A stretch of DNA of 64,000 nt from Christiangramia sediminis (GTDB lineage Bacteria > Bacteroidota > Bacteroidia > Flavobacteriales > Flavobacteriaceae), in contig NZ_JAJBZG010000002.1 of NCBI RefSeq assembly GCF_020552705.1, forward strand, positions 1-64,000, read 5' to 3'. Position numbers and translations under genes: made by a program. Under the pieces are notes generated by a model that saw nothing but the letters and a program-made list of their open reading frames with translations, made no database searches and was not told the DNA's origin. Positions 60,138 to 64,000 of the stretch are shown piece by piece (positions within the stretch are counted from its first letter, which is position 1; each line of letters begins with the position of its first letter).

Positions 60138-63100
60138 TTACTTCAATACTACCCCTACTCCAATTTTATCCAGCAAATAAGGATTATGATCAATGATTAG
60201 TATGTCATTGGCTTTACTTAGTTTCTTCAGAATAGTATACAAAAGATCAATATCGGCATAATGCAATCCTGTGCTGGGCTCATCTAAAATATAAAGTACA
60301 TTTTTAGCCTGATCCTGCAGCCAGTTTAAAAGCAATAATCGTTGCCGCTCTCCAGATGAGAGGGATTGTACAGGCTGATCTAACCTGAGATGTGCCAGGC
60401 CTATTCCCTCTAATTGATCTAAAAACTCAAGATTTTTAGCTGATATTTTATTCTGTAACAACCAACTTCTTAACTCGAGTATATTTAAAGCAAGTACCTG
60501 AGCTATATTTTTTGATTGAACTGTCTGAGCTAAGATGTGATCCTGATAGCGTTGCCCCTTACATATTTCACATTTTTCAATTGCATTTGCCGCTACATCT
60601 AAACTTGTTTCTATATAGCCTTTCCCCTTACAATTTGGACATTGACTGGTTTTTGTCTTATAAGAAAAGTCACGAGGCTTCAAACTGGATTCCGCAGCAA
60701 AAATTTTACTGATGTCTGCTAGCAAATTCAAATAAGAAACTAACAAAGTATTCTTATGTGATCTCAATTTTTTAGATTCAAAATAGTGCGCTTCCTTATA
60801 CTCCTTCGGAAAACTGATGCTTTCGCAATTCACCGGTTTTTTAGTCTCTATACTGGGAATTAGTATATCTTTGACCAAAGTAGTTTTCCCAATTCCCGAT
60901 TTACCGCTAATAGCAGTAATTCCTCCAACATAGACATCCAGTTTATTTTTCACTAACGTATGCCTGGACAGTTTATTAATACCAATAGTTTCTTTAGCAG
61001 TCTTCAAACTAACAGCTCTGGAGGGAGCTTTTAGGTAAGGGTGACTTTCACTTTGTTTCAGAAAATCCTGGGGTGTTCCCTGAAAAGTAATATTGCCTCC
61101 AAGTTTACCGGCTTGCGGTCCCAGCTCAATTAACCTATCTGCAGCCAGAATGATCTCCTTGTTATGTTCTATTACCAGAACCGTGTTCCCTTTTTCAATA
61201 AGTTCTTTCAGAATGTTAATCAGGTCCGGGATATTGTTGTTGGATAATCCTGCGGAAGGTTCATCCAGAAGATAAGTGATGCCTTTTAAGGGGCTGTTCA
61301 ATTGTTTGATCAAAGCAACGCGTTGATTTTCTCCCCCAGAAAGCGTGGTAGATTTTCGATTTAATTGCAAATGATCTATATGCAACTGCTTTGCTCGTTT
61401 TATAGTATTAATTAGATAGGATTCAATTTTAGAAATCAATTTTTGATCTATTTCTTCATAATTTTCAATTACAGATATCCATTCTTTAACTGCTTTAAAA
61501 TCAAGGGATTTTATATCATGAATCGATTTTTTACCAATCTGAAATTCTAAACGCTCAGGTTTTAGTCCACTTCCATCACAATGACTACATTTTGCAGAAG
61601 TAAATAATGATGTAAGCCTTTCAATATGTTTGTTTTTTCGGGTCTTATAATATTCTTCTTTTAAGTACTGGAAAAGTCCCTGCCATTTCATGCTCACCGC
61701 TTGAGTACCTTCTCTGGTTTTAGTTTTAAATGTCCATTCGGTTTTCCAAACTTTATCTCCTGTACCCTTAAATAATATTTCTTTTTGCTCATCTGTTAGT
61801 TCTTTAAAAGGAGTTTCCAGTGTAAACCCTTGTACTTTTCCCAACTCTTTCACGACTGCCATGTACTGACTGCTGGCCTGCCCGTAATAAGCTAAAGATT
61901 TATTGTGCTCAAAAAGTCCGTCATTAATACTTCTATTTGGATCAAGGACGATTTTATCAAGATCTGGTAGCAGCTCTTCGCCCAATCCATCGCAAATAGC
62001 ACATTTTCCTAATTCATGATTATTGGAAAAATGACTGGCAGATAATTCTTCTCCTTTATACTGGGCTTTCCTGGAAAAGGCAAATCGCAACAACTTATCT
62101 ATTCCGGTCTGTTTGGAAATATCTGAACGTTCGGTAAAACTTTTTTGTTTTCGAGTGACACAAATTGTGGGGCTTAAACCTTCAATATGATCCACTTCAA
62201 ACTGAAAATTCACCCCAACCCTGGATTGCTGATAAGAGGAGAATTGCTTGGTCATCTCCTGTAATCCAAAGCCATGTAGTGTATCAATAACCAAAGAAGA
62301 TTTTCCTGAGCCTGAAATTCCCGTGATTACCGATAATTGATTCTTCGGAAAATCTATATCCAGATCTTTTAAATAATGGGTTCGAGCACCCTTTATAGAA
62401 ATTCTATCTCGTAATTGATCATTTACTTCTTTAAACTCTTGTTTATCGGCTTTCAAGGCATTCTTTACCTGCGTATCACAGGAAGCATTGAAAAGAGGAT
62501 GATTTTCAAAACATATAATACCGGCAGTTTGTTTTTTAAGTTCATGCATCGCCTTTATTAACTGACGTACATTTTGCTGGTGTAAACCTATACTGGGTTC
62601 TTCAAGCAACAATAATGTCTTTTTAGATTGTTTGGCGAAATGCTTGGTAAGTTTAATTCGTTGTGCTTCTCCACCAGATAAAGTATTAGACGGTTGTCCC
62701 AGTTTTACATATCCCAAACCTAACTGTAACATCAGGGATAATATTTTTGTGATCTGCTTTTCCTCGTTAAAAAAGTCGAAAGCCTCCTCTATACTTAGAT
62801 CATAGATCTCTGCGATAGTTTTATTATTCCAATGCACTTGCAGTACTTCAGGCTTAAAACGTTTCCCATTACAGCTCGGACAGATCTGATTGATCGTACC
62901 CATAACGTTCATTGAAAGTGTGATAACCCCGGCTCCTTCACATGTTTCACATCTTCCGGTCTTGTTATTAAATGAGAAAGCTCCTTTTGCTAATTTCAAC
63001 TTTTTAGCCTCGGCAGATTTAGCCAGAAGATCCCGTATCTTATCGGCTAATCCTGTATAAGTTGCAGGATTACTACGTGGGGTTTTACCAATAGGTTGAT

Positions 63101-64000
63101 CTGAAACTGTTAGCAGATTCAAATCTTTCTTTTCGGCGAACTCAGAAAGCAACTCCATTATTTCAGGTGTTTTTCTGCTAATTACGGTCAATTCTCCATT
63201 TTGAGGTTGAAAAGAACCTGCTGAAGTTTGCTTTGGTCTTTTATCAGTTTCTGAAATGGATTTCTTTAATTCAGAAAGTGTTGGACTAAAAAGATCTTCC
63301 GCATTTAAAAATTCCTGAATAGGACCATTGAAGATTACTTCTCCTCCATTTACCCCGGCTTCAGGACCTAATTCAACGATCCATTCAGCAGATCTTATAA
63401 AGTCCAGATCATGCTCCACTACCATCACCGTATTCCCACGACTAATCAATCTTTTCAGAATATGTCTCAAATAATACTGATAATCTTCAGATAAGCCGAT
63501 AGAGGGTTCATCAAATACATATAGAATGCCCTGCAGACTGCTGTTTACCTGCTTGATCAATTTAATTCGCTGGCCATCACCCGAAGAGATATCCAGGCTT
63601 GGAGTGCTTAGCTTATATTCACTCATTCCCAAACGTATCAGATCGTACAATTGAACACAGATCTTATCGGCTAATACCTGCTCCCCTGCAGTATATTTCT
63701 GCTTCGTAAGTAAATCGTACAATTCACTTAAAGAAAGTTCCATCCAATCATTAAAATTCAATCCTTTCCATTTGAATTTTAAATGTTCAGCTTTAATTCG
63801 TGCTCCCTTACAACTGGGACAAACACTGGAACTGGCAAATTTTAGGATATTTGGGTTACGATCCCTCTTCAGAATATCGCTCATAATTGGAAGAATTCCT
63901 TTATAAAACCCTTCTTCCCGGGGCTTTGCTTTAAAACCTTCCCATCTTAAACGCGACTCCAAAGTATGTTTCCCATAAAAAACTTTAATGCGTTCACTCC
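60138..64000 (-). CDS. Double-length UvrA-type ABC protein, N-terminus outside the window
   Basis: The frame is open to the right edge (in-frame codons read SERIKVFYGKHTLESRL), so the start lies beyond 64000. The visible 1,287 residues hold four ABC modules; an ordinary UvrA has two. Numbered from the TTG at 63962 they are: module 1, signature SSGDGQR (126-132) and FDEPS; module 2, zinc knuckle CETCEGAG...CPSCNGKR (338-368), GKTPRSNPATYTG (292-304), LSGGEAQR and LEEPS, without a recognisable Walker A; module 3, Walker A GISGSGKSS (548-556), CAICDG and CSHCDG, LSGGENQR, LDEPS; module 4, Walker A SGKSGIGKTT, CPNCKGKG...CEICKGQR, LSSGERQR, LDEPS. UvrA recognises DNA lesions for excision repair; this looks like two UvrA units in one chain, perhaps a UvrA2-like protection or repair factor. 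Confidence 0.88.
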   Translation of the reverse strand, partial: SERIKVFYGKHTLESRLRWEGFKAKPREEGFYKGILPIMSDILKRDRNPNILKFASSSVCPSCKGARIKAEHLKFKWKGLNFNDWMELSLSELYDLLTKQKYTAGEQVLADKICVQLYDLIRLGMSEYKLSTPSLDISSGDGQRIKLIKQVNSSLQGILYVFDEPSIGLSEDYQYYLRHILKRLISRGNTVMVVEHDLDFIRSAEWIVELGPEAGVNGGEVIFNGPIQEFLNAEDLFSPTLSELKKSISETDKRPKQTSAGSFQPQNGELTVISRKTPEIMELLSEFAEKKDLNLLTVSDQPIGKTPRSNPATYTGLADKIRDLLAKSAEAKKLKLAKGAFSFNNKTGRCETCEGAGVITLSMNVMGTINQICPSCNGKRFKPEVLQVHWNNKTIAEIYDLSIEEAFDFFNEEKQITKILSLMLQLGLGYVKLGQPSNTLSGGEAQRIKLTKHFAKQSKKTLLLLEEPSIGLHQQNVRQLIKAMHELKKQTAGIICFENHPLFNASCDTQVKNALKADKQEFKEVNDQLRDRISIKGARTHYLKDLDIDFPKNQLSVITGISGSGKSSLVIDTLHGFGLQEMTKQFSSYQQSRVGVNFQFEVDHIEGLSPTICVTRKQKSFTERSDISKQTGIDKLLRFAFSRKAQYKGEELSASHFSNNHELGKCAICDGLGEELLPDLDKIVLDPNRSINDGLFEHNKSLAYYGQASSQYMAVVKELGKVQGFTLETPFKELTDEQKEILFKGTGDKVWKTEWTFKTKTREGTQAVSMKWQGLFQYLKEEYYKTRKNKHIERLTSLFTSAKCSHCDGSGLKPERLEFQIGKKSIHDIKSLDFKAVKEWISVIENYEEIDQKLISKIESYLINTIKRAKQLHIDHLQLNRKSTTLSGGENQRVALIKQLNSPLKGITYLLDEPSAGLSNNNIPDLINILKELIEKGNTVLVIEHNKEIILAADRLIELGPQAGKLGGNITFQGTPQDFLKQSESHPYLKAPSRAVSLKTAKETIGINKLSRHTLVKNKLDVYVGGITAISGKSGIGKTTLVKDILIPSIETKKPVNCESISFPKEYKEAHYFESKKLRSHKNTLLVSYLNLLADISKIFAAESSLKPRDFSYKTKTSQCPNCKGKGYIETSLDVAANAIEKCEICKGQRYQDHILAQTVQSKNIAQVLALNILELRSWLLQNKISAKNLEFLDQLEGIGLAHLRLDQPVQSLSSGERQRLLLLNWLQDQAKNVLYILDEPSTGLHYADIDLLYTILKKLSKANDILIIDHNPYLLDKIGVGVVLK

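Follow-up and report, generated by a model that had tools for sequence, protein, structure and literature searches.

A double-length UvrA without UvrB-binding domains and with one degenerate ATP site in Christiangramia sediminis and other Bacteroidota

Introduction

Is a UvrA gene of double length an accident of assembly, a decaying duplicate, or a conserved protein in which two UvrA protomers share one chain? This question is raised by a 64,000-nucleotide stretch of the genome of the marine bacterium Christiangramia sediminis (positions 1 to 64,000 of contig NZ_JAJBZG010000002.1, assembly GCF_020552705.1; hereafter the window), in which a frame on the reverse strand (60138-63998) encodes 1,286 residues and a stop and continues past the window edge. 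A preliminary description, made from the sequence of the window, had interpreted this frame as a covalent double UvrA with four ATP-binding cassette (ABC) modules and unequal ATP (adenosine triphosphate) sites. Here we describe the complete protein, in which one composite ATP site appears to be lost as a unit and both halves lack a UvrB-binding domain, and its relatives in which these features are conserved.

Results

A four-module UvrA in a single frame

When the window was joined to the adjoining stretch of the genome (L009), the gene was found to begin with an ATG and to encode a protein of 1,496 amino acids (G000:C3 60138-64628 (-)) with four ABC modules in a single frame, as had been expected of a frame running beyond the window. 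The UvrA family model TIGR00630 matched the whole protein with 1,075 bits against a cut-off of 729.8, so its UvrA identity is not due to chance. The double-length model NF001885 (1,809 positions), which with PRK00635 we take to represent the chlamydial double-length UvrA family, gave 686 bits, below its cut-off of 3,054, and four other double proteins also fell below this cut-off (932-1,308 bits). Pfam UvrA_DNA-bind matched twice and eight CxxC pairs are present; together with the structural models described below these identify a UvrA fold with zinc modules and a DNA-binding insertion domain. The closest solved chain by sequence was Deinococcus UvrA2 (2VF7). The host genome (3.25 Mb, 5 contigs) also encodes the separate normal uvrA genes that the preliminary description had proposed to look for: two ordinary UvrAs of 943 and 929 amino acids.

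One composite ATP site is degenerate

In UvrA, ATP-binding I and signature II form the proximal ATP site, and ATP-binding II and signature I form the distal site (PMC6486640). The double protein has three Walker A motifs, at residues 28 (GLSGSGKS; intact and outside the window), 770 (GISGSGKS) and 1242 (GKSGIGKT), with none in module 2, and four signature-like motifs, at residues 348 (SSGDGQR), 650 (LSGGEAQR), 1096 (LSGGENQR) and 1423 (LSSGERQR). These positions bear out what had been noticed earlier: module 2 lacks Walker A, the signature of module 1 is degenerate, and modules 3 and 4 keep both motifs (770/1096 and 1242/1423). By the published site pairing, the missing Walker A II and the degenerate signature I belong to one composite site, the distal site of half 1. 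Two further residues are missing from module 2, the aspartate of Walker B (LLLLEEPS) and the histidine of the H-loop (CFENHPLF), and the adenine-stacking arginine of the same site is likewise lost.

We scored the motifs of the four sites across relatives with permissive rules (Walker A Gx[SA]GxGK[ST]; signature [LIVC]S[GSAP]GE; Walker B xDEP; H-loop His), under which variants such as LSSGE and CSAGE count as intact. The protein of the window belongs to a short clade of 46 proteins (41 clusters at 97% identity). All four motifs of the half-1 distal site failed in 46/46 of these proteins, and all four motifs of the half-1 proximal, half-2 proximal and half-2 distal sites passed in 46/46. In a long clade (44 proteins of ~1,590 amino acids) the half-1 distal site kept Walker A and had lost signature, Walker B and H-loop in 39 proteins; all four motifs failed in a further 4, and all except the H-loop in 1. 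The other sites, in the order given above, passed in 44, 43 and 44 of the 44.

A further 13 double proteins were scored, of which 12 are deep members of the same two clades and one, L168d, is a double class I protein. In 7 of the 13 all four motif tests were passed by the half-1 distal site; three motifs failed in L109 and L114, two in L112 and one in L111 and L113, and in L110 all four failed, with a gap of Ns hiding part of the site. The other sites passed in 12, 10 and 12 of these proteins, the five failures being due to Ns (L110) or a contig end (L129, twice) and to variants of signature IV (L112 and L115). The site counts leave out L061, L066, L068, L086, L092, L095, L102, L108, L118, L119 and L122, mostly for contig ends, but also for a stop inside module 1 (L061), a stop near a contig end (L066) and a frame change inside module 2 at a locus with 38 Ns (L108); the genus pieces L028-L030 were also left out. 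Judged by these motifs, the loss appears to hit one ATP site as a unit and not to be scattered damage, and three sites are predicted to work, two in half 2 and, in half 1, the proximal site formed by Walker A I and signature II.

Both halves lack a UvrB-binding domain

In class I UvrAs a UvrB-binding domain follows Walker A I and precedes the next zinc module, and neither half of the double protein has one there. The distance from Walker A to the first CxxC is 104 residues in half 1 (45/46 short-clade proteins; 137 in L039) and 106 residues in half 2 (46/46), compared with 246 and 243 in the two ordinary UvrAs of the host and 104-109 in four class II UvrAs; a fifth class II UvrA, L185, is without its N-terminal part and its spacing is not comparable. 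In none of the 46 short-clade proteins is either half long enough at this place to hold a UvrB-binding domain. Absence of this domain is the mark of class II UvrAs, which are single-length chains of two modules, and the double protein shares the absence but not the length. In the long-clade protein L078 (1,696 amino acids) the stretch from Walker A III to the following zinc module is ~110 residues longer, at the place where the UvrB-binding domain sits in class I UvrAs; this was seen in 1 of 40 long-clade proteins.

The two halves were modelled separately, half 1 from the orthologue L121 (739 residues; predicted local distance difference test, pLDDT, 81.9; predicted template modelling score, pTM, 0.72) and half 2 from the protein of the window (757 residues; pLDDT 86.9, pTM 0.77). 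The models match UvrA structures over nearly the entire half. At residues 480-507 the half-1 model has a short strand-helix-strand, where half 2 has a full sheet and a Walker A helix. By Z score the class II UvrA Ecm16 came first for half 1 (Z 34.3, root-mean-square deviation (rmsd) 2.3, 557 residues), tied with class I UvrAs that lie within one Z unit. For half 2 the best match was the C. thermocellum UvrA (Z 35.4, rmsd 3.7, 620 residues), with Ecm16 at Z 32.5. Each half is thus predicted by these models to fold as one UvrA protomer without a UvrB-binding domain which, with the conservation among relatives, upholds the earlier idea of a covalent double UvrA with unequal ATP sites.

The double protein is conserved in other genomes

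In the genus Christiangramia (formerly Gramella) a match was found in 20 of 24 genomes, our own included. In 18 of the 20 it is one uninterrupted frame of similar length; in G012 it is split over two contigs and in G020 it is cut by a contig end. The preliminary description had named an assembly or sequencing fusion of two genes as the finding that would overturn it, and this is excluded because the orthologous frames are uninterrupted in other genomes. Both halves were in one frame in every complete relative counted.

With the own genome counted each time, matches were found in 12 of 299 genomes of a family sample (E ≤ 1e−150) and in 2 of 395 and 2 of 246 genomes of a phylum and an order sample (E ≤ 1e−125), the second match in both being the family member G662; distant members escape limits as strict as these. 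A profile of the half-1 insertion domain found 5 of 295 genomes in a class sample (own included; the frame in G1045 is broken). A scan of one genome per species gave no matches with a single-sequence query, and an alignment of the half-1 insertion domain then found 159 relatives, of which 80 were used here. Among these 80 were members of Salegentibacter, Christiangramia/Gramella, Salinimicrobium, Robertkochia, Marivirga, Lewinella, Fulvivirga, Roseivirga, Kordia and Crocinitomix, many metagenome-assembled genomes (MAGs) of Bacteroidota, some MAGs labelled only as "bacterium" and one labelled Acidobacteriota. The same-genus orthologues L011, L017 and L021 share at least 97% identity with their counterparts in Christiangramia crocea (L121), Gramella jeungdoensis (L134) and C. 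aestuarii (L137), which assigns the window to Christiangramia.

An association with mobile elements was considered and rejected: no relative was confirmed in viral contigs with the insertion-domain alignment, none was found in phages with a 90-residue query, and every plasmid match was below 60% identity (901 and 867 records). The six plasmid loci examined encode single-length UvrAs, five of class II type and one of class I. On a Parabacteroides distasonis plasmid (L183:3001-5244), a single-length UvrA without a UvrB-binding domain lies between genes for a ThuA-domain and a sugar-binding-domain protein.

Phylogeny of the halves

The preliminary description had also proposed a phylogeny of the two halves, and in this the first halves formed one clade and the second halves another (support 100/99 each in the careful tree of 44 rows; a second tree agrees). 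These separate clades point to one old fusion, which explains the double proteins of these clades, that of the Acidobacteriota-labelled MAG included. Forcing both halves together cost 12.8 log units (approximately unbiased test, p-AU 0.07); they may descend from a single gene by duplication or from two distinct UvrAs. The class II rows (five in one tree, one of them gappy; three in the careful tree) fall in two places.

In a tree of the joined halves, made with a quick method and supported by the Shimodaira–Hasegawa-like approximate likelihood ratio test (SH-aLRT) only, the motif-complete deep members lie outside, the clade of the window's protein is sister to L109 plus L112 (support 99), and the long clade branches outside that group. 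L109 and L112 keep the H-loop histidine of the half-1 distal site and L112 also keeps an intact Walker B. If this topology holds, the short and long lineages each lost Walker B and H-loop of this site independently.

Three loci are worthy of separate mention. The MAG labelled Acidobacteriota encodes a double UvrA of 1,764 amino acids (L172:3132-8423 (-)) with a UvrB-binding region in half 1 and none in half 2, which makes it intermediate between class I and the type found in the window. The MAG "bacterium isolate Co_bin.47" contains a frame of 2,062 amino acids with two full class I UvrA halves (L171:12007-18192 (+)), ~5 kb from the UvrB-less double UvrA of the same MAG and on the opposite strand; its halves fall beside class I UvrAs with modest support (83 and 90), and a search of this MAG showed no UvrA of single length. 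In Roseivirga spongicola (L103) an open reading frame (ORF) of 170 amino acids directly upstream of the full gene is a near-copy of about its first 130 residues, as if by a recent partial duplication.

Selection, feature map and gene context

We estimated the ratio of nonsynonymous to synonymous substitution (dN/dS; Nei-Gojobori) for eight pairs of short-clade orthologues, two of which are near-repeats and none of which includes the gene of the window. It was ~0.08-0.14 over the gene, 0.09-0.16 over residues 441-738, the degenerate module, and about 0.1 in both halves, which shows purifying selection on the double-length uvrA. Among 28 orthologues 521 of 1,496 positions are invariant. Invariant positions make up 75 of 155 in residues 121-275, which include insertion domain I, and 37 of 157 in the corresponding part of half 2 (46 short-clade rows). 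The features of the gene are listed in Table 1.

Table 1. Features of the double-length uvrA in the window.
Feature	Position	Strand	Residues	Remarks
Double-length UvrA, in-window part	60138..64000	(-)	211-1496 + stop	first 210 codons outside, up to G000:C3 64628
Half 1: in-window part of DNA-binding insertion domain I and second CxxC of zinc module	63810..63998	(-)	211-273	
Signature I, degenerate, ISSGDGQR	63567..63590	(-)	347-354	distal site of half 1, predicted dead
Walker B I, LYVFDEPSIGLS, intact	63489..63524	(-)	369-380	proximal site of half 1
H-loop I, VVEHDLD, intact	63402..63422	(-)	403-409	
Remnant of ATP-binding lobe II	63108..63197	(-)	478-507	short strand-helix-strand replacing Walker A lobe; half-1 model of orthologue L121
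Zinc module of module 2, two CxxC	62871..62951	(-)	560-586	
Signature II, LSGGEAQR, intact	62658..62681	(-)	650-657	proximal site of half 1
Walker B II, degenerate, LLLLEEPSIGLH	62580..62615	(-)	672-683	Asp to Glu; distal site of half 1, predicted dead
H-loop II, degenerate, CFENHPLF	62490..62513	(-)	706-713	His to Asn; distal site of half 1, predicted dead
Linker between halves	62409..62483	(-)	716-740	1/25 positions invariant
Walker A III, GISGSGKS, intact	62298..62321	(-)	770-777	proximal site of half 2
Zinc module and DNA-binding insertion domain of half 2	61578..62003	(-)	876-1017	
Signature III, LSGGENQR, intact	61320..61343	(-)	1096-1103	distal site of half 2
Walker B III, TYLLDEPSAGLS, intact	61242..61277	(-)	1118-1129	
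H-loop III, VIEHNKE, intact	61155..61175	(-)	1152-1158	
Walker A IV, GKSGIGKT, intact	60882..60905	(-)	1242-1249	distal site of half 2
Zinc module of module 4, two CxxC	60561..60641	(-)	1330-1356	
Signature IV, LSSGERQR	60339..60362	(-)	1423-1430	passes permissive signature test; proximal site of half 2
Walker B IV, LYILDEPSTGLH, intact	60261..60296	(-)	1445-1456	
H-loop IV, IIDHNPY, His kept	60177..60197	(-)	1478-1484	

At least one single-length full UvrA was found in 27 of 28 genomes searched (25 of which have the double protein), and the remaining genome, G1156, instead has a separate double class I UvrA. The genus genomes G002, G008 and G021, which are without the double protein, have two ordinary UvrAs each. 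ORFs were clustered around 33 short-clade and 30 long-clade loci, and the commonest neighbour cluster was near 8/33 and 5/30 of these, in varying positions. An example from the long-clade cluster is a Tet-like ribosomal protection GTPase. By exact motif, such a GTPase gene sits no more than three ORFs from the double uvrA at L116, L071 and L081; these are 3 of the 63 loci, which is too few to support a resistance role. The PADLOC model mad3 matched the double UvrA with 270 bits but one of the ordinary UvrAs in this genome with 325 bits, so that we took it for a generic ABC match and rejected a defence system.

Discussion

Chlamydial double-length UvrA, which is the only UvrA of its genome, resembles the protein described here in being one chain of two UvrA-like halves. 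In Chlamydia trachomatis the gene (ct333) has 5,361 bp and encodes 1,786 amino acids (PMC6686042). Our protein is ~290 residues shorter, is without UvrB-binding domains and is a third paralogue beside two full-length ordinary UvrAs. UvrAs without the UvrB-binding domain (class II) have also been described (PMC5128194 and PMC10192343) and are known in Streptomyces and Deinococcus. Ecm16 (PDB 7SH1), DrrC and Deinococcus UvrA2 (2VF7) lack the UvrB-binding domain and keep the insertion domain and two zinc modules, but are single-length chains of two modules, whereas here two protomers are fused and one site is predicted to be dead. With ordinary class I UvrA (TIGR00630) the double protein shares ABC modules, zinc modules, insertion domain and signature and Walker motifs; it differs in being doubled, in having no UvrB-binding domain and in its degenerate composite site. 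Asymmetric ABC heterodimers with one degenerate site, such as TM287/288, CFTR and the MRP type, similarly have lost one composite site as a unit and kept its partner, but they are membrane proteins with two modules, not DNA-binding proteins of UvrA type with four. We found no description of a UvrB-less double UvrA, or of a UvrA with one composite site lost, in the open literature, subscription papers being mostly outside the scope of the search. What appears to be new is the combination of double length, absence of the UvrB-binding domain and one dead site; double length or absence of that domain alone was known.

Our preferred interpretation, to which as a whole we give about an even chance, is that the double protein is an accessory third UvrA of its host, in which two UvrB-less protomers in one chain make a built-in, permanently asymmetric UvrA "dimer" with three live ATP sites that acts independently of UvrB. 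Halves 1 and 2 would pair with each other around DNA. Half 1, with its more conserved insertion domain, would mainly read and hold distorted or ligand-carrying DNA, and half 2 alone would run a fast distal ATP cycle while half 1 stays distal-empty. In ordinary UvrA tight nucleotide binding and a fast burst belong to the distal sites, which depend on ATP in the proximal ones (PMC6486640). As only half 2 would be able to run such a cycle, we infer that there may be a reading half and a motor half. The protein may act without UvrB, like class II Ecm16, and may locate, shield or strip off bulky lesions or small molecules that are bound to DNA. In Ecm16 the insertion domain is required for DNA binding, the ATPase is stimulated by echinomycin-bound DNA, and protection of Escherichia coli K12 was also seen in a uvrB knockout (PMC10192343).

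Several points weigh against this interpretation. The status of the sites was read from motifs, and the halves were folded apart, so that their pairing in cis is our extrapolation. Foldseek E-values place class I UvrAs first for half 1, and the double proteins group apart from the sampled class II UvrAs in the trees; the likeness to class II should therefore be taken as architectural and not as shown descent. The UvrB interface is formed in part by signature domain II (PMC6486640), so the missing UvrB-binding domain does not by itself exclude contact with UvrB. Around the 33 short-clade and 30 long-clade loci, no neighbour gene common to most of them points to a lesion or drug. Overall, the interpretation given in the preliminary description is partly supported: the covalent double chain with unequal ATP sites is borne out, and its suggested part in lesion or drug protection is a candidate role.

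This UvrB interface leaves room for an excision-repair helper that still uses UvrB, via signature domain II or by pairing with ordinary UvrAs, and so broadens the lesion range. We consider such a helper unlikely: signature domain II is kept and potential UvrA partners exist (single-length in 27 of the 28 genomes, double class I in G1156), and the Acidobacteriota-labelled MAG protein with its UvrB-binding region suggests that an ancestor may have used UvrB, but neither half has room for the domain in the 46 short-clade proteins, and extra residues occur in just one of 40 long-clade proteins, in half 2. A comparably low probability attaches to chains that do not fold on themselves but pair with another copy of the protein or, through one half, with an ordinary UvrA; larger assemblies would result, and the dead site would regulate assembly and make no internal asymmetric dimer. 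In all solved cases known to us the protomers of a UvrA dimer are separate chains, and the modelling of the halves apart is compatible with this reading; the short, variable linker and the single frame in all complete relatives, however, favour a pair in cis.

That the gene is a decaying duplicate without function is very improbable. One ATP site is destroyed and 4 of the 24 genus genomes have no match (one of the four is 73% complete), but the low dN/dS extends to both halves and the degenerate module, about a third of the positions are invariant and the three remaining sites pass in every short-clade protein. A fusion made in assembly or sequencing has a negligible chance of being the explanation, given that other genomes carry the gene as an unbroken frame of almost equal length, and nothing was found in favour of such a fusion.

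Returning to the asymmetric single chain, we extend it more hesitantly, and at somewhat less than even probability, to the phylum: Bacteroidota may widely carry UvrA heterodimers that consist of one chain, act independently of UvrB and have the same ATP site of the four switched off, a state finished separately in two sub-lineages, and which serve as a directional sensor of damage or ligands. The double protein adds a third UvrA to many Bacteroidota genomes, where a family search labels it simply as UvrA. The roles of the four ATP sites in symmetric UvrA have been studied with mutants that hit both protomers at once. An asymmetric lesion is there read by a symmetric four-site dimer, and a natural chain with three live sites and one dead site would allow one site to be changed at a time, with the relatives that have four motif-complete sites as a matched control. 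If the wider reading is true, a directional sensor with a reading half and a motor half would contrast with the symmetric UvrA of textbook excision repair.

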